DNA of 64,000 nucleotides from Sinosporangium siamense (GTDB lineage: Bacteria > Actinomycetota > Actinomycetes > Streptosporangiales > Streptosporangiaceae): NCBI RefSeq assembly GCF_016863435.1, contig NZ_BOOW01000006.1, forward strand, positions 310,001 through 374,000, given 5' to 3'. This document shows, one piece after another, positions 46,370 through 58,235 of the stretch; position 1 is the stretch's first letter, and the number at the start of each line of letters is the position of its first letter. The notes under the pieces are model-generated. The model was not told where the DNA came from, made no database searches, and saw nothing but the letters and a program-made list of their open reading frames with translations. Made by a program: the position numbers and the translations under genes.

Positions 46370-46632
46370 CTAGAAGACGGTCAGACGGACGGGCGGCCGG
46401 GGGAGTTCGGAAGGCGTTCGACGAGCCCCCTGCAGGGCCTCCTGGAGTTCCATCCTGGCCAGGGGGGCGCCCAGGCAGAAGTGCACACCCCTGCCGAACC
46501 CCGGGTGGGGGGCGTGCCCGGTCACCAGCCGGTCGGGGGCGGGGAAGACCGGCGGGTCGTGGTTGGCCACCTGGTTGACGGGCAGGGCGGCCAGACGGGC
46601 GAGATCTCCGCTGGGCAGTTGCACGTGGGGCA
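46370..46632 (-). pseudogene. Cytochrome P450 C-terminal relic 1
   Basis: The heme-binding region is intact-looking: PVNQVANHDPPVFPAPDRLV, FGRGVHFCLGAPLARMELQEAL with the heme-ligating Cys. Upstream of QLPSGD nothing of the P450 is left. After LQEAL the frame slips, since LVERLPNSPG appears in another frame. Only about 80 of 400 residues remain. It lies tail-to-tail with glmS. Confidence 0.8.
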
Positions 46633-47578: not shown

Positions 47579-47835
47579 TCATGGAACCCCAAACCCGCGG
47601 GTGATCGAGGAGGAGCCCAAGCGGCTGATCGAGGTGCCCGGCAACTCGGCCGCCGGCTCGGCCAGGGCCATGTCCGGCAGCCGCGCGGCGAAGGCCTGAA
47701 GGTTTCCTGGAGCTCGATGCGGGCCAGGTTGGCGCCCAGGCAGTAGTGCGCGCCCCGGCCGAAGCCCAGGTGAGGAGGGCCGTCATAGCCCGGCTTGACG
47801 ACCTCGAGGTTGGCCGTGGAGGACACCGCCATGAC
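47579..47835 (-). pseudogene. Cytochrome P450 C-terminal relic 2
   Basis: VSSTANLE is fused to [24 protein letters not shown] with a gap where about 20 residues are expected. Then the frame changes: [20 protein letters not shown] is in another frame, ending at 47579. The heme loop is nearly identical to that of the intact P450 at 49721-50938 ([21 protein letters not shown]), so the two are paralogs. It is a relic downstream of nothing else of the gene. Confidence 0.8.
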
Positions 47836-47953
47836 CGCCTGGCCCCGCCTGCAGGCGGTAGGTGGGAGTGACAGGCCTACCCGGCACGTTCCGGTCGTCC
47901 GTACGGTGACACCATCGAGCCCCCCAAGGGGCGCATCCCGGAAGGAACCTCTC

Positions 47954-48424
47954 GTGACCACCGCTCCCGCCCCAGCCCCGTCGAGCGAGGCGCTGGCCGC
48001 CCTCGTCGACAAGGAGGCGATTCGCGGCCTGCTCGTGCGCGGCTGGCGTGCCTTGGACCACAAGGACTACGACACCTGGATCGACTGCTGGACCGCCGAC
48101 GCCGAACTCGCCTTCGGCCCCTGGGAGCCGCTCCACGGCGCGACCACCATCAGGGACACCGTCGTCCAGGCCGAAGATCGCTATGACGCCATGTTCCACC
48201 ACCTGCTCAACACGCACTTCGAGATCGACGGCGACCGCGCCACCGGCGTCGGCTACATGCTGTTCGTCGGGATCCCCGACAGCGGCGAGCCGGGCGAGCA
48301 CTTCGACATGGGCGGCTCCTACGCGTGGGAGTTCGTCCGCACCGGCGACGGCTGGAAGGTCGCCGGGCAGCACCTGACCATGGCCTGGAAACTGGGCGTT
48401 GACACCCTCGGCTCCTTCTCATGA
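47954..48424 (+). CDS. SnoaL-like nuclear transport factor 2 family protein
   Basis: The GTG at 47954 follows GGAAGGAA. The 156-residue protein has a cone-shaped NTF2-like fold: [55 protein letters not shown], then [23 protein letters not shown]. This pattern is that of SnoaL-like polyketide cyclases and related small enzymes or binding proteins; the reaction cannot be read. The stop overlaps the next start (ATGA), so it is translationally coupled to an MmyB-type regulator, which likely controls this pair. Confidence 0.85.
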
Positions 48425-49263
48425 CCGGCAGCCGTCTCGGGGAGTTCCTGCGCGCCCGCCGCGCCGCGGCCGACCCGGCACGGCACGGGCTACCCGCGGG
48501 GCAGCGCCGTACGCCGGGACTGCGCCGTGAAGAGGTCGCGATCCTGGCCGGGGTGTCCACCGACTACTACATCCGGCTGGAACAGGGGCGCGACAGGCAC
48601 CCCTCGCCCCAGGTCGTCGAGGCCCTCGCGGTGGCTCTCGGCCTGAGCGCCGACGCCGCCGACCACCTGCGCACACTGGCGAGCCCGGCGCCGCCGCGCA
48701 GACGACCCACCCGCACCGAGTATGCGGACGCCGCCCTCATCCGCCTCATGGACGGCTGGCACACCACCCCCGCGCTCATCTTCGACCGCTATCTCAACCA
48801 GCTGGCCGCCAACCCCCTCGGGGAAGCGCTGTTCGACTGGATGGGGGAGGAGGCGAATCTGGTCACCGCGGTGTTCCTCCGCCCGCCCGCCCGGACCTTC
48901 TACCGCGACTGGGAGGTCATCGCCGAGAACTGCGTGGCGGCGCTGCGCTCCAGCACCGGCGGCGACCTGGACGATCCAGCTCTCATCGCACTGGTGGGCG
49001 AGTTGTCCCTGAAGAGCGTCGATTTCGCTCGCCTGTGGTCGCGTTACGACGTGCGCAGCAAGACCGCCGAAACCAAACGATTCCACCATCACCTCGTCGG
49101 CGACATCGAGCTGAGCTACCAGTCGCTGAGCGTCAACTCCAGCCCCGGCCAGCAGCTGGTCGTCTACCAGGCCGAACCCGGGAGCCCCTCGGCCGACGCC
49201 CTGGCCATGCTCGGCAGTCACCGCCTTGGTACGGCTCGCGCCGTACAGCACAAGCATGTGTGA
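48421..49263 (+). CDS. MmyB-family helix-turn-helix transcriptional regulator
   Basis: The N-terminal XRE helix-turn-helix reads LGEFLRARRAAADP, then RTPGLRREEVAILAGVSTDYYIRLEQGRDRHPSPQVVEALAVAL, the hallmark of the MmyB branch. The C-terminal PAS-like ligand-binding domain (TPALIFDRYLNQLAANPLGEALFDW, FHHHLVGDIELSYQSLSVNSSPGQQLVVYQAEPGSPSADAL) is known to bind fatty acids in one studied member. 280 residues. It overlaps the SnoaL-like gene by 4 bases and precedes the Atu4866-type lipoprotein gene, forming a three-gene group that recurs in actinobacteria. Confidence 0.9.
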   Translation: MTGSRLGEFLRARRAAADPARHGLPAGQRRTPGLRREEVAILAGVSTDYYIRLEQGRDRHPSPQVVEALAVALGLSADAADHLRTLASPAPPRRRPTRTEYADAALIRLMDGWHTTPALIFDRYLNQLAANPLGEALFDWMGEEANLVTAVFLRPPARTFYRDWEVIAENCVAALRSSTGGDLDDPALIALVGELSLKSVDFARLWSRYDVRSKTAETKRFHHHLVGDIELSYQSLSVNSSPGQQLVVYQAEPGSPSADALAMLGSHRLGTARAVQHKHV

Positions 49264-49324
49264 CCGGCGGAACGTGGGGCTTTTTACCACTCCCACGGGG
49301 AGACCATCCCACTGAGACGGAACC

Positions 49325-49717
49325 ATGATCAGACGCACTGTCGCCGTGACCGCCGCTCTCGCCTTCGCCCTCACTGCCTGTTCTCAGCACGAGGCGGCAG
49401 TCCAGGGCGCGGCCACTCCTTCACCCACCGCCTCCCACAGTCAGGAGCCCACCGTGACGTCCACGTCCACCGGCATTGCCGCCCACCCATATGTCGGTAT
49501 GTGGGTCACCGCCGACGGCCACATCCGCCAGGAGTTGACCGCTGACGGCCGCTACGACGAGGCGCGCGGCACCCGCAAGAGCGCCTATACCGGCGGTTAC
49601 ACCGTCACAGGGAACCAGATCGACTATGTCGACGACACCGGTTTCACCGCCGACGGCGTCTTCGTCGACAACGACACACTGCACCACGGCGGCATGATCT
49701 TCTACCGCGAGCGCTGA
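49325..49717 (+). CDS. Atu4866-family lipoprotein
   Basis: The N terminus is a lipoprotein signal (RRTVAVTAALAFALTAC, lipobox ending at Cys 19). A Ser/Thr-rich spacer follows. The C-terminal 75 residues (HPYVGMWVTADGHIRQELTADGRYDEARG, GGYTVTGNQIDYVDDTGFTADG) match the small beta-barrel family typified by Agrobacterium Atu4866. In related operons it accompanies SnoaL-like proteins and short-chain reductases. The ATG at 49325 lies 61 bases after the MmyB gene. The function is unknown; a ligand-binding role outside the membrane is likely. Confidence 0.82.
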   Translation: MIRRTVAVTAALAFALTACSQHEAAVQGAATPSPTASHSQEPTVTSTSTGIAAHPYVGMWVTADGHIRQELTADGRYDEARGTRKSAYTGGYTVTGNQIDYVDDTGFTADGVFVDNDTLHHGGMIFYRER

Positions 49718-49720
49718 CCG

Positions 49721-50938
49721 TTATGCGGGAGCGTCGCCGAGGTGCACGAGCAGGCGCTCCGGCCGCTTGAACAGATGTCCCTGCGACCAGGGTACGGCGC
49801 TCGCCGGCTCGGCCAGGGCGAGATTCGGCAGCCGTGCCACCAGTGCCCGGAACGCCTCCTGGAGCTCCACCCTGGCGAGGTTGGCGCCGAGACAATAGTG
49901 TGGCCCCCTGCCGAAGCCCAGATGCGGATGGCCGGACCTCGCCGGGTCGACGCGCCGGGGGTCGGGAAACACCTCGGGATCGAAGTTCGCCGCCGAGGAG
50001 ACCGGCAGAACGGCTTCGCCGCGCCGCACCCGTCCCGAGGGCAGGTCCACATCCTCGGTCGCCACCCGCATGAAGAGCGCGTCCCCCGGAGTCTCGGTGC
50101 GCAGGAGCTCCTCGACCACCCCGGGGATCGACTCCGGCGCCTCGACGAGGGCCGCATAACCCGAGCGCGGCTCCAGAAAGCGCACCAGGCCCCGCGTCAG
50201 CAGGGAACTCGTGGTCTCGTGACCTGCGAGGATCAAGGACACGGTGAGCCGGACGAGCTCCCTCTCGCTCAGGCGGTCTCCGTCGTCGCGCGCCTGGATC
50301 ATCTGCGTCAGCAGCCCGCCGCCGGGGGAGCGCCGCTGCTCGGCGACGAGCTCGGCGGCGTAGTTGTGGAAGTCCAGCGAGGCCTGGCGGCGCTCCTCCT
50401 CCGAGACGTCGGCGGTGGAGAGCAGGGCGCAGGACATAGAGCGCACCTTGGCTATGTCGAGCTCCTTGACGCCGAGGATCGCGCAGATCACGCTCACCGG
50501 ATAGAGAACGGCGAAGGTCGTCAGATCGACGATGGGCTCGCCCGCCTTGACCTCGGTGAGCAGCAGATCGTCGGCGACGGCGCGGATGGCGTTCCGCCAG
50601 CCGTCGGTCTGGCGGGGGGTGAAGGTGCCTGCGAGCAGCCGCCGGAGCCGGGTGTGCTCCGGGGCGTCCATGTTGATCAGCGAATTGGGCTCGTCGGATA
50701 AGTCATATCCCTTCAGCAGCCGTGGAGCTCCGGGGTAACGGAGGTTCCTGCTGAAGCGGGGGTCGGTCAGCACCGCGACCGCGTCCTCATAGCGGACCGC
50801 CAGCCAGGCGGGGTCGCCGCTCGGCAAGGTGACACGGGCCAGCGGTCCGGGGCGGAGCAGGTCCAGGAGTTCATCGGCGGGGCGGCCGGGCTCTTGGCGA
50901 GGGAAAGGGAAATGAGGGCATGCAGAGTTTTGTGACAT
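49721..50938 (-). CDS. Cytochrome P450
   Basis: The 405-residue bacterial class I P450 is complete. It has an I-helix LILAGHETTSS (oxygen-activating acid/alcohol pair partly replaced by E-T-T), a K-helix ExxR in EELLR, an NxxxFxPD-like VFPDPRRVDP and the heme loop [16 protein letters not shown] with ligand Cys. It would monooxygenate a small molecule using external ferredoxin; no ferredoxin is adjacent. The ATG at 50938 lies next to a region with several dyads. It is divergent from an XRE-cupin regulator gene. Two broken P450 relics lie within 5 kb, so this is the survivor of a small family. Confidence 0.93.
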   Translation of the reverse strand: MSQNSACPHFPFPRQEPGRPADELLDLLRPGPLARVTLPSGDPAWLAVRYEDAVAVLTDPRFSRNLRYPGAPRLLKGYDLSDEPNSLINMDAPEHTRLRRLLAGTFTPRQTDGWRNAIRAVADDLLLTEVKAGEPIVDLTTFAVLYPVSVICAILGVKELDIAKVRSMSCALLSTADVSEEERRQASLDFHNYAAELVAEQRRSPGGGLLTQMIQARDDGDRLSERELVRLTVSLILAGHETTSSLLTRGLVRFLEPRSGYAALVEAPESIPGVVEELLRTETPGDALFMRVATEDVDLPSGRVRRGEAVLPVSSAANFDPEVFPDPRRVDPARSGHPHLGFGRGPHYCLGANLARVELQEAFRALVARLPNLALAEPASAVPWSQGHLFKRPERLLVHLGDAPA

Positions 50939-50975
50939 AAACGCACGCTAGCGAGGCCTGACGCTTTTTCAAGGT

Positions 50976-51066
50976 CACATTTATGTGGTGAGATCCTTCC
51001 TTTTCTCAAGAAATCACCATTTATGGTGATTTGGTCGGGTGGGGGCGTGACTCCTTATGTGGTGAG
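50976..51066. promoter_or_regulatory. Cluster of related dyads between P450 and XRE-cupin genes
   Basis: A perfect 10-2-10 inverted repeat AAATCACCAT-tt-ATGGTGATTT covers 51011-51032. A related 5-2-5 dyad CACAT-tt-ATGTG is at 50976-50987. The half-site TTATGTGGTGAG occurs exactly at 50981-50992 and again at 51055-51066. The block is much AT-richer than its surroundings. The spacing and repetition suggest cooperative binding by the adjacent regulator. Confidence 0.65.
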
Positions 51067-51175
51067 TTCCCGTGGTGGTGGGTCCGGCTGCCTGTGCCGG
51101 GTTCCGGTACGGTGCAGCCCCCGGTGCCGAAGCGAGCGCCTGAGTGAGCAGGAGTGTGCAGTGTAGGCTTACGCT

Positions 51176-51847
51176 GTGGCGAACCCTGTGACCGGCTCCT
51201 CGACCCCCCTGCGATCAGAGGCCCTGGGGGCCGGGCTCCGCGCCGCCCGGCAGGAGCGCGGACTGTCCATCCGGGCGCTGGCCCGCACCCTCGGCTGCTC
51301 CGCCAGCCTGCTCTCCCAGATCGAACGCGGTGTCACCGCCCCCTCCGTCGGCATGCTCTACATGCTCGCCGGTGAACTGGGCGTGTCCATCGACCGGCTG
51401 CTCAACCTGGCCATCCCCGAGGTTCCGCAAGAGCCGCCCCCCGCCGAACGGAACGGCTCGGGGCGGCCGGAACCGTGGCACCTGATCCGCTCCCTGCCCC
51501 CGTCCCTCCAGGCCCAGGTGCAGAGGGCCACCGGCCGCCAGGCCGTCGACTTCGGCAGCGGGGTGCGCTGGGAGCGGCTCACGACCACGGCCGACTCCCG
51601 GGTGGACTTCATGGAGATCGTCTATGCGCCGGGCAGCTCATCGGAGGAACAGGTGGGGCATGAGGGCTACGAATACGGCATCGTGATCGAGGGATCGCTG
51701 ACCGGCCGCATAGGGACGGAGGAATACGTGCTCAACGCGGGCGACTCCATCTCGTTCGCCTCCTCCACCCCTCACCACTACCGCAACGACGGCGAGATCA
51801 CGACCCGCGCGATCTGGTTCGTGCTGCACACCCCGCACTCCCCATGA
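51176..51847 (+). CDS. XRE-family regulator with C-terminal cupin domain
   Basis: The helix-turn-helix at residues about 15-70 reads LRAARQERGLSIRALARTLGCSASLLSQIERGVTAPSVGMLYMLAGEL. A cupin_2 domain at about 140-220 has VYAPGSSSEEQVGHEGYEYGIVIEGSL and GDSISFASSTPHHYRN, with the His/Glu pattern of a metal- or ligand-binding cupin. The GTG at 51176 is close to a TAGGCT-like -10, so the mRNA may be nearly leaderless. It is divergent from the P450 gene with the dyad cluster between them, so it is the best candidate for controlling that gene. Confidence 0.9.
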   Translation: MANPVTGSSTPLRSEALGAGLRAARQERGLSIRALARTLGCSASLLSQIERGVTAPSVGMLYMLAGELGVSIDRLLNLAIPEVPQEPPPAERNGSGRPEPWHLIRSLPPSLQAQVQRATGRQAVDFGSGVRWERLTTTADSRVDFMEIVYAPGSSSEEQVGHEGYEYGIVIEGSLTGRIGTEEYVLNAGDSISFASSTPHHYRNDGEITTRAIWFVLHTPHSP

Positions 51848-54953: not shown

Positions 54954-54978
54954 CGAAATTCGTGAAGTGCGAATTTCG
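54954..54978 (+). promoter_or_regulatory. Hairpin in the cold-shock gene leader
   Basis: CGAAATTCG (54954-54962) pairs perfectly with CGAATTTCG (54970-54978) across 7 bases, 30 bases before the start. Cold-shock genes typically have long structured 5' leaders; this AT-containing stem could melt or refold with temperature. Confidence 0.5.
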
Positions 54979-55008: not shown

Positions 55009-55215
55009 ATGGCTACCGGCACCGTGAAGTGGTTCAACGCAGAAAAGGGCTTCGGCTTCATCGAGCAGGACGGCGGCGGCGCCGACGTCTTCGCGCACTA
55101 CTCGAACATCGTCGGTCAGGGCGGCTACCGCGAGCTGCGTGAAGGCCAGAAGGTGACCTTCGACGTCACCCAGGGCCAGAAGGGCCCGCAGGCCGAGAAC
55201 ATCGTGGCCTCCTGA
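55009..55215 (+). CDS. Cold-shock domain protein
   Basis: The 68-residue product is a single cold-shock domain: [20 protein letters not shown] (RNP1 KGFGFI), DVFAHYSNI (RNP2-like), and [20 protein letters not shown]. It binds single-stranded RNA and DNA and acts as an RNA chaperone. The ATG at 55009 follows AAAGAGGAGA. The gene is preceded by about 220 bases without genes, including a leader hairpin, and is followed by a long terminator. Confidence 0.95.
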
Positions 55216-55228
55216 CAAAGCATCACTG

Positions 55229-55264
55229 ATCAGGGCCCGCATCCGCACGGATGCGGGCCCTGAT
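55229..55264 (+). terminator. 17-bp-stem terminator after the cold-shock gene
   Basis: The arms 55229-55245 and 55248-55264 pair perfectly over 17 bases with a 2-base loop, 14 bases after the stop. Confidence 0.85.
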
Positions 55265-55602: not shown

Positions 55603-55649
55603 ACACAAGGTGTTGGGGTGGTTGCGCCGGGCGGCACTAGATGTAGGAT
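55603..55649 (+). promoter_or_regulatory. Two NrdR-box-like repeats 31 bp apart
   Basis: The 16-base segments at 55603 (acacaaggtgttgggg) and 55634 (gcactagatgtaggat) align without gaps at most positions. They start 31 bases apart, the spacing typical of the paired NrdR boxes in front of ribonucleotide reductase genes. Similarity to the NrdR consensus is partial. Confidence 0.45.
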
Positions 55650-55651
55650 TC

Positions 55652-55893
55652 AGCTCGTTGCTGGTTCGCCCCCGGAGCCCCGGAGGCGACGCAAGAGGGA
55701 ACCCGGTGCGGCACCCGCGCTCATGGCAGAGCGGCGGGCACGCCAATTCCGGGACTGCCCCGCAGCGGTGAGTGGGAACGACAGCCGTCATCAAGCACTG
55801 GGCGCGAGCCTGGGAAGCGACGGCCACTAGGTGCGCCCGCCGACGACCACGTCGGCGGGAGTGTGCCCACGAGTCCGAAGACCTGCCGGCGAC
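55652..55893 (+). promoter_or_regulatory. Cobalamin riboswitch
   Basis: The conserved blocks are in order: a purine-rich AGAGGGAACCCGGTG (about 55694), the core GGGACTGCCCCGCAGCGGTGAG with GGGAACGACAGCCGTCA (55752-55795), AAGCACTGGGC, GAAGCGACGGCCACTAGG, and the terminal AGTCCGAAGACCTGCC (about 55872-55887). These are the B12-box and core of adenosylcobalamin aptamers. It sits 140 bases before nrdA. In Streptomyces such an element shuts off the class Ia reductase when B12 supports the class II enzyme. A GC hairpin downstream may be the expression platform. Confidence 0.9.
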
Positions 55894-56033
55894 GTCTAGT
55901 CCAGGGCTTCGAGGGAGGGCCCGCCGGACCAGCGGGCGACCCGTGCCTTCTTACGGGCGTGCCGCTTGCCGCGCGTGCCCGTCCCGCCGAACGCCGCAGG
56001 GGGATTCAAGAGCGCGCGTAGGGAGACAGGCAC

Positions 56034-58235
56034 GTGACGACTGCCGCAATTCAGGGTGTGGACCGGCGGCTCGCCATCGAGGAGGCGGCGGCCAAGGTCA
56101 TCGCCGACCCGGAGAACTCCAAGGTCGCATCGGCGCTGCTGGCCGAGGAGATCGCCGAGGAGGCGGCGGCCCACGGGGTGCGCCTGTTCTCCGACTCGGT
56201 GGCGGCGACACACGCGGCGGGGCTGGTGTCGGACGAGCTGGCGGCGTTCACCGCCGCGCACGCCGCGGAGCTCGACGCGCTGATCGACGAGAGCGCCGAC
56301 GCGCGGTTTGAATACTTCGGGTTGCGCACGGTCTACGACCGCTACCTGCTGCGGCACCCGGTGACCCGCGCGGTGCTGGAGCGCCCGCAGCACTTCTTCC
56401 TCCGCGTGGCGGCCGGCCTGTCCGACACCGTCGCCGAGGCCGCGGAGCTCTACAGGCTGATGTCCTCCCTGGCCTACCTCCCGAGCTCCCCGACACTGTT
56501 CAACTCCGGGTCGCGCCGCCCGCAGCTCTCGTCCTGCTTCCTGCTCGACTCGCCGCGCGACGAGCTTGAGGCCATCTACGAGAGATACGGCCAGGTGGCC
56601 CGCCTGTCGAAATATGCCGGGGGCATCGGCATCGCCTGGTCCCGGGTGCGTTCCCGGGGCAGCCTCATCCGGGGCACCAACGGCCACTCCAACGGCATCG
56701 TGCCGTGGCTGCGCACCCTCGACTCCTCGGTCGCGGCGGTCAACCAGGGCGGCAGGCGCAAGGGCGCGGCCTGCGTCTACCTGGAGCCGTGGCACGCCGA
56801 CATCGAGGAGTTCCTCGAACTCCGGGACAACACCGGCGAGGAGGCCCGCCGCACCCACAACCTCAACCTCGCCAACTGGATCCCCGACGAGTTCATGCGC
56901 CGCGTCGAGGCCGACGGCACCTGGTCGCTGTTCGACCCCAAGGAGGTGCCCGAGCTGGTCGACCTGTGGGGTGAGCGGTTCGAGGCGGCCTACGCCGAGG
57001 CCGAGCGTGCCGGGCGCTACGTCAAGCAGGTGCCGGCCCGCGCCCTCTACGCCCGCATGATGCGCACCCTCGCCCAGACCGGCAACGGCTGGATGACCTT
57101 CAAGGACGCCGCCAACCGCGCCTCCAACCAGACCGCGCGGCCGGAGAACGTCATCCACCTGTCCAACCTGTGCACCGAGATCCTGGAGGTCACGAGCGAC
57201 GGCGAGACCGCCGTGTGCAACCTCGGCTCGATCAACCTCGGCGCGCATCTGTCGGGCTCGGCCGCGCCGGGCGAGGAGCTCGACTGGGCCCGGCTCCGCC
57301 GTACGGTCGCCACGGCGATCACCTTCCTGGACCGCACGATCGACCGCGGCTTCTACCCGACGCCGGAGGCGCAGGCCGCCAACCGGCGGTGGCGGCCCGT
57401 CGGGCTCGGCGTGATGGGGCTGGCCGACGTCTTCTTCGCGCTTCGGCTGCCCTTCGACGGGCCCGAGGCGCTGCGGCTGTCCACGCGGATCGCCGAGGAG
57501 ATCGCCCTGGCGGCCTACCGCACCTCGGCCGATCTGGCCGAGCGGCTCGGCACCCACCCGTCATACGGCGAGACCCGTGCCGCCGACGGCAAGCTGCACC
57601 TCGACCACTTCCCCGCCGCGCCGGTGCACGCCGCCGAGTGGGAGCGGCTGCGTGCCCGCGTCGCCGGCACGGGGCTGCGCAACTCGCTCATGATCGCCAT
57701 CGCGCCGACCGCCACGATCGCCTCCATCGCCGGGTGCTACGAGTGCGTCGAGCCCCAGGTGTCCAACGTCTTCAAGCGTGAGACCCTGTCGGGGGAGTTC
57801 CTCCAGGTCAACCGCTATCTGGTGGCCGACCTCAAGCAGCGGGGGCTGTGGACCCCAAAGGTGCGCGACGCGATCAAGCGGGCCGACGGCTCGATCCAGG
57901 ACATCCCGGCCCTCCCCGCCGAGCTCAAGACGCTTTACCGCACGGCCTGGGAGTTGCCGCAGAAGGCGCTGATCGACCTGGCCGCCGCGCGCCAGCCGTA
58001 CATCGACCAGTCGCAGTCCCTCAACCTGTTCATGGCGTCCCCCACCATCGGCAAGTTGTCCTCGATGTATGCCTATGCCTGGCGCCAGGGCTTGAAGACC
58101 ACCTACTACCTGCGGTCCCGCCCGGCCACCCGCATCGCGCAGACCACCGTCGAGGCCGTGCCCGCCGCACGCGAGTCCGCCGAGGCCGTCGCCTGCTCAC
58201 TGGAGAACCCCGAGATCTGCGAAGCCTGCCAGTAA
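56034..58235 (+). CDS. nrdA: Class Ia ribonucleoside-diphosphate reductase, alpha subunit
   Basis: The catalytic residues of class I NrdA are visible: the first redox Cys in LSSCFLLDSP, N-x-C-x-E in LSNLCTEILE, the second Cys in AVCNLGSINL, the radical-transfer tyrosine pair in KTTYYLRSRPA, and the C-terminal shuttle cysteines ENPEICEACQ. The substrate loop GGIGIAWSRVRSRGS is also typical. The N-terminal 130 residues do not show an obvious ATP cone. The GTG at 56034 (GGGAG upstream) gives 733 residues. It converts ribonucleoside diphosphates to deoxy forms with NrdB, whose gene lies 33 bases downstream. Expression is likely repressed by cobalamin through the riboswitch. Confidence 0.95.
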   Translation: MTTAAIQGVDRRLAIEEAAAKVIADPENSKVASALLAEEIAEEAAAHGVRLFSDSVAATHAAGLVSDELAAFTAAHAAELDALIDESADARFEYFGLRTVYDRYLLRHPVTRAVLERPQHFFLRVAAGLSDTVAEAAELYRLMSSLAYLPSSPTLFNSGSRRPQLSSCFLLDSPRDELEAIYERYGQVARLSKYAGGIGIAWSRVRSRGSLIRGTNGHSNGIVPWLRTLDSSVAAVNQGGRRKGAACVYLEPWHADIEEFLELRDNTGEEARRTHNLNLANWIPDEFMRRVEADGTWSLFDPKEVPELVDLWGERFEAAYAEAERAGRYVKQVPARALYARMMRTLAQTGNGWMTFKDAANRASNQTARPENVIHLSNLCTEILEVTSDGETAVCNLGSINLGAHLSGSAAPGEELDWARLRRTVATAITFLDRTIDRGFYPTPEAQAANRRWRPVGLGVMGLADVFFALRLPFDGPEALRLSTRIAEEIALAAYRTSADLAERLGTHPSYGETRAADGKLHLDHFPAAPVHAAEWERLRARVAGTGLRNSLMIAIAPTATIASIAGCYECVEPQVSNVFKRETLSGEFLQVNRYLVADLKQRGLWTPKVRDAIKRADGSIQDIPALPAELKTLYRTAWELPQKALIDLAAARQPYIDQSQSLNLFMASPTIGKLSSMYAYAWRQGLKTTYYLRSRPATRIAQTTVEAVPAARESAEAVACSLENPEICEACQ

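Follow-up and report, generated by a model that had tools for sequence, protein, structure and literature searches.

Which promoter does a small cluster of DNA repeats serve, and which protein would read it? The question is raised by three repeat sites, s1, s2, and s3, that fall within 91 bp of the 237-bp intergenic region between divergent genes for a cytochrome P450 and an XRE-cupin regulator in the window (the whole 64,000-nucleotide stretch of Sinosporangium siamense DNA analyzed here). An earlier note had assigned the repeats to the P450/XRE-cupin promoter region, where all three sites indeed lie, and had proposed the XRE-cupin protein as the factor that binds them.

Repeat sites in the P450/XRE-cupin intergenic region

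The genes, predicted promoter hexamers, and sites at this locus are as follows.

48421-49263: MmyB-like (MLTR) regulator
49721..50938, minus strand: cytochrome P450, 405 aa (Pfam PF00067, 8.9e-26; closest solved chain 9kpp_A, 6e-98)
50945..50950, minus strand: predicted P450 −10 hexamer TAGCGT, 6 nt before the ATG (leaderless)
50967..50972, minus strand: predicted P450 −35 hexamer TTGAAA, placed by eye, with a 16-nt spacer to the −10
50975..50991, no strand assigned: s1, TCAC-N9-GTGA, containing the perfect 12-bp dyad CACATTTATGTG (50976-50987)
50981..50992, plus strand: first exact 12-mer TTATGTGGTGAG, the right half of s1
51011..51032, no strand assigned: s2, perfect 10-2-10 inverted repeat AAATCACCATTTATGGTGATTT, arms AAATCACCAT-TT-ATGGTGATTT, TCAC-N8-GTGA
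51047..51066, no strand assigned: s3, the distal site GTGACTCCTTATGTGGTGAG, containing the second exact 12-mer TTATGTGGTGAG (51055-51066)
51154..51172, plus strand: probable XRE-cupin autoregulatory operator GTGTGCAGTGTAGGCTTAC, overlapping the −10 TAGGCT (51164-51169)
51176..51847, plus strand: XRE-cupin regulator, 223 aa, divergent from the P450 (Pfam HTH_3, 1.6e-14; Cupin_2, 8e-16)

The repeats proved to be largely as the earlier note had described them: the perfect 22-bp inverted repeat (10-2-10) is s2, the related 12-bp dyad lies in s1, and the two exact 12-mers begin at 50981 and 51055, where agreement between s1 and s3 widens to 15 of 16 bases. The 91-bp block is also AT-rich, at 46% G+C versus 57% for the whole intergenic region. 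A core common to the sites exists, but in another form than the fixed-length TTATGxGGTGA claimed: s2 contains TTATGGTGA, so that the word found in all three sites is TTATG(TG)GTGA. Written as TCAC/TGAC-N-GTGA, the sites have spacers of 9 (s1), 8 (s2), and 10 (s3). With the P450 start codon counted as +1, their centers fall at approximately −43.5, −83.5, and −117.5, respectively, the register of s3 being taken from the 12-mer that it has in common with s1; the distance from s1 to s3 is 74 bp, or about seven helical turns.

The repeat sites exceed chance expectation. When the 237-bp intergenic region was shuffled 2,000 times with its dinucleotides preserved, 5 shuffles contained an inverted repeat (arms of at least 10, gap of at most 8), 2 contained an exact direct repeat of at least 12, and none (0/2,000) contained both; these thresholds were chosen after the sequence had been seen. 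The real region holds two TTATG-N0..2-GGTGA words; two such words occurred in 0/5,000 shuffles and one in 7/5,000.

A predicted leaderless P450 promoter beside the sites

A scan of the region for E. coli-type consensus promoters found none, and the −35 hexamer of the P450 was therefore placed by eye. Placement of the promoter as a whole rests on a pattern common to P450 homologues of 52 to 55% identity, in 9 of 10 of which (all but L034) TANNNT stands 6 to 7 nt ahead of the start codon, the start codons in this comparison being the analyst's choice. All three sites lie upstream of the predicted −35, the nearest, s1, at a distance of 2 bp. The cluster is real, operator-like, and ordinary in kind. 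So placed, s1 to s3 could be operators of the P450 promoter, from which a leaderless transcript would start, and the block probably controls the P450.

No P450 relative above 55% identity, against whose upstream region s1 and s2 might be compared, was found among the best 6 or 4 candidates per genome (297 family and 394 class genomes). A search of a plasmid collection returned one match, at 47%.

Nearby on the minus strand are two truncated, C-terminal P450-like pieces (46427-46624 and 47633-47874), 59 and 60% identical to approximately residues 297 to 365 of the intact P450 (tblastn); Pfam gave a sub-cutoff match for one piece and none for the submitted part of the other. Their arrangement suggests a decayed P450 array between glmS and a TctC-like gene. 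In G009, a P450 lies between glmS-like and TctC-like genes, as judged by sequence likeness.

We rejected a transcribed RNA element as an account of the block: the minus strand from 50939 to 51066 folds unremarkably (z-score, −0.79; 43 of 200 shuffles fold as well), and Rfam returned no match there. Farther along the window, a gene that resembles those of cold-shock proteins, as judged by sequence likeness (start near 55010), is closely preceded by a perfect 9-7-9 inverted repeat (54954-54978) and followed by a perfect 17-2-17 repeat (55229-55264) that is perhaps a terminator. Beyond these, a cobalamin riboswitch (55645-55904; Rfam, 80.3 bits) precedes a ribonucleotide-reductase-like gene at 56034, also named by sequence likeness.

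Copies of the motif elsewhere

The earlier note had proposed a genome-wide motif search for coregulated genes, and none of the matches inspected was convincing. Across 297 genomes, the 20-mer of the palindrome (up to 2 mismatches) recurred in two other places, one in the window's own genome and one in G195, the latter about 30 bp before a predicted kinase-like open reading frame. The own-genome match precedes a solute-binding protein gene and agrees at 19 of 22 bases by eye. However, TCAC-N6..10-GTGA is absent from 17 orthologous promoters of that gene (proteins 74 to 77% identical), which instead have a GCA(A/T)GC..TTCA element in common (by eye).

Looser searches of the own genome gave more matches than their reversed controls. 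TTATGTGGTGAG with up to 1 mismatch occurred at 13 places versus 5, its only exact copy beyond the two sites here lying inside a predicted open reading frame, and the 16-bp core with up to 3 mismatches gave 34 matches versus 9, the window site contributing one match on each strand. The surroundings of 7 of the 32 other core matches were inspected, and 3 were intergenic by mechanical calling of open reading frames. Since the 17 orthologous promoters lack the dyad and carry another element, and the matches inspected included no further conserved copies before other genes, we rejected a genome-wide regulon motif.

The core also looks similar to the NrdR box, a 16-bp near-palindrome, and intergenic sequence ahead of an nrdR-like gene (L038; recognized by sequence only) contains a 2-mismatch match to the core. 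The gene here, however, encodes a P450 and not a ribonucleotide reductase, and the core departs from the box in its inner bases.

A separate element at the XRE-cupin promoter

Orthologues of the XRE-cupin regulator were found in 6 of 297 family genomes, the window genome included (E ≤1e-45, among the best 10 candidates per genome), which gave six orthologous loci besides the window: G001, G029, G041, G175, and two in G013. The window and three of these six loci have in common an element, GTGCAGTGTA(N3)TTAC, at the regulator's own promoter (51156-51172 in the window), outside the block. The word GTGTGCAGTGTA, which overlaps this element, is exact in the window (51154-51165). One G013 locus (L014) has an exact copy at the regulator's own promoter and a 2-mismatch copy at the M24 peptidase side, and the other (L016) has an exact copy at the M24 side and a 1-mismatch copy at the own promoter. 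In G001, the copy at the regulator's own promoter has 1 mismatch, and that at the M24 side is inverted and has 3; in G029, G041, and G175, 3-mismatch copies adjoin the divergent promoter's TGTCAA. A TANNNT located 6 nt ahead of the start codon is overlapped by the own-promoter copy in G001, both G013 loci, and the window, where the hexamer is TAGGCT and the start codon GTG.

In 289 family genomes, the pattern GTGCAGTGTANNNTTAC was matched 4 times, always immediately ahead of an XRE-cupin orthologue, and its reversed control was matched 2 times; because the pattern was derived from these same loci, only its absence elsewhere is independent information. The recognition-helix region of the window protein, GCSASLLSQIERG, recurs unchanged in G001, with one residue different in G013a, and with two different in G013b. 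The orthologue in G001 (L017 5862-6893) has an insert of about 120 residues between its HTH and cupin domains.

The own-promoter element and the conserved recognition-helix region of the orthologues point to autoregulation of the XRE-cupin gene through 51154-51172 and not through the dyad block. This agrees with the autoregulation described for XRE-cupin proteins in the parts of the literature considered here (PMC7901475, PMC12565409). The regulator, on this comparative evidence, is better provided for by this candidate site than by the block. Of the earlier proposal, the placement of the sites in the divergent promoter region stands, but binding of this motif by the XRE-cupin protein is not supported, the element shared with orthologues being a different sequence.

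Partial conservation of the block at orthologous loci

At the orthologous loci, the gene divergent from the regulator is never a P450 (0/6). It is an M24 peptidase gene in five (G001, G029, G041, and both G013 loci) and a solute-binding protein gene in G175. Downstream of the M24 gene in G001 and in one of the G013 loci are E1-type dehydrogenase genes. Pfam is the basis of these assignments for the G001 E1 proteins and for the M24 proteins at two loci (G001 and one in G013), and sequence likeness is the basis for the others. Three relatives of the G001 M24 protein are encoded elsewhere in the window's genome, on contigs C41, C54, and C18 (78, 68, and 53% identical).

Conservation of the dyads was uneven. 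In the six orthologous regions, the closest counterparts of the palindrome core differed from it at 5 to 8 of 16 bases and those of the 12-mer at 3 to 5 of 12, but the position of s3 is kept in G001, the only same-genus relative. An ungapped comparison restricted to similar distances placed its top-scoring 20-mer precisely on s3, which was identical to its G001 counterpart at 15 of 20 positions (0/300 shuffles as good), at 129 and 126 nt from the respective regulator starts, and the matching G001 segment overlaps the 3-mismatch GTGTGCAGTGTA copy. In a gapped local comparison, s1 aligned with the same G001 site (70/2,000 shuffles as good). When the whole block was aligned locally with the six regions on both strands, one of the 12 comparisons, that with the plus strand of G001, had a low shuffle count (3/300); it relied on many gaps, and for this reason we preferred the ungapped test of s3. 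A global alignment of the intergenic region with that of G001, the last 30 nt left out, was matched or exceeded by 153 of 500 shuffles. Homology of the whole region to G001 was accordingly rejected as not above chance, except for s3 and the core promoter. These comparisons suggest that s3 is probably older than the arrival of the P450 and that s1 may be a copy of s3.

It is because of this probable age of s3, and the possible origin of s1 from it, that we regard the XRE-cupin protein as a serious, if less than probable, candidate for the block. It would bind the block in addition to its own operator and repress or switch the P450, the old M24-side operator region having been re-used after the P450 replaced the M24 operon. 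The kept spacing and 15/20 identity of s3, the overlap of its G001 counterpart with a degenerate copy of the regulator's element, and the alignment of s1 with that same site all fit such re-use, as does the near-restriction of the palindrome to the P450 promoter. Yet the block differs from the orthologues' shared element despite the conserved recognition helix, and at least 5 of 16 bases of the palindrome core are mismatched throughout the six regions. Sites upstream of the −35 are, moreover, unusual for a repressor.

Comparison with known systems bears on the same candidate. In the parts of the published accounts considered here, Pseudomonas XRE-cupin proteins mostly act on neighboring genes (PMC7901475) and are local, palindrome-binding inhibitors with some autoregulation (PMC7901475, PMC12565409), which favors XRE-cupin control of the block. 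As far as those accounts go, ErfA, PsdR, and PauR of Pseudomonas aeruginosa resemble the window in that an XRE-cupin gene adjoins an enzyme gene and a palindromic site lies in the shared upstream region (PMC7901475). Unlike them, the window has a regulator whose orthologues share another motif, at their own promoter, and has three sites before the neighboring gene, all upstream of its predicted −35. Set against the features of a local XRE-cupin operator, the locus has an adjacent gene encoding an XRE HTH and a cupin domain, and a palindrome in the promoter of the adjacent enzyme gene; its sites are not the motif shared by the regulator's orthologues, s3 being partly conserved in one of six (G001). 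The closest loci, the divergent XRE-cupin/M24 loci of the same bacterial family (G001, G029, G041, and two in G013), encode a regulator orthologous to that of the window, with the own-promoter element in G001 and both G013 loci and s3 partly kept in G001, but the window has a P450 in place of the M24 gene, plus the s1 and s2 dyads. Among the titles listed in our literature searches, none concerned an actinobacterial XRE-cupin protein with a P450.

Alternatively, the block may have no present function: s1 and s3 would be a short duplication, and s2 a palindrome, either decayed or arisen by chance, in A+T-rich sequence left where the P450 became joined to the region upstream of the XRE-cupin gene. 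The agreement of s1 with s3 is what a duplication would leave, the intergenic region aligns with that of G001 at chance level, and the truncated P450-like pieces indicate a rearranged locus. We nonetheless consider this improbable, given that the repeat and 12-mer pair never arose together in shuffles and that TTATG(TG)GTGA recurs in all three sites upstream of the same promoter.

The neighboring MmyB-like regulator

The MmyB-like (MLTR) regulator is encoded within 3 kb of the block, and its action on the P450 through the block was weighed as well. Orthologues were detected in 6 of 250 family genomes, the window genome included (E ≤1e-95). The neighbor of the MmyB-like gene in G001 and G194 is an Atu4866-like gene, and the 3.8 kb retrieved there contains no P450. 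These two genomes and the window (G000) have a promoter element in common, GGTGGGAG(C/T)G(A/C)CAGG-N-CTACCC (47857-47881 and onward in the window), that is unlike the dyads of the block; the three more distant of the six loci lacked it by eye. The one trace of this element in the block is a G-rich half match at 51037-51047, where GGGTGGGGGCG resembles one half of the G001 form (10/11), a weak match in a G+C-rich genome. Control of the P450 by this regulator is therefore very unlikely.

From 47857 to 49717, SnoaL-like, MLTR, and Atu4866 genes form a row, in which GGTAGG..CCTACC arms flank a promoter element. The row recurs in G001, where its SnoaL-like gene is shortened, and the last two of its genes are present in G194.

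Discussion

The explanation that we favor, with a confidence falling a little short of even, is that the block serves the leaderless P450 promoter as a lineage-specific array of operators, read by a protein that is more likely neither the XRE-cupin nor the MmyB-like regulator and that would be encoded elsewhere in the genome. A dimeric regulator would occupy the three TCAC/TGAC-N8-10-GTGA sites upstream of the P450 −35, the nearest only 2 bp away, perhaps cooperatively, and so control RNA polymerase at this promoter. Sites in this position would lean to activation, and occlusion of the −35 would be possible.

Several observations count against this explanation. s3 is kept in G001 beside an XRE-cupin gene and not a P450, and s1 can be aligned, with gaps, to the same G001 site. 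The near-uniqueness of the palindrome in the genome would fit a local regulator better than a distant one, the own-promoter element is present in only three of the six relatives' loci, and no candidate regulator was identified outside the locus.

A further account, which we think unlikely, would be a regulator switch in progress. The P450 would have replaced the M24 operon beside the XRE-cupin repressor, the operon-side operator would have decayed to s3, and the array would have grown by duplication (s1) and palindrome formation (s2), with the regulator either reading two motif types or having ceded the promoter to another protein.

Annotation routinely attributes an operator to whichever regulator is encoded nearest. 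In this case, the orthologues of that regulator indicate another site, 88 bp past the block (51154), which calls for caution in taking this step. If an XRE-cupin repressor does serve the newly placed P450, the locus would be a small test case for the re-use of a regulator after gene replacement.
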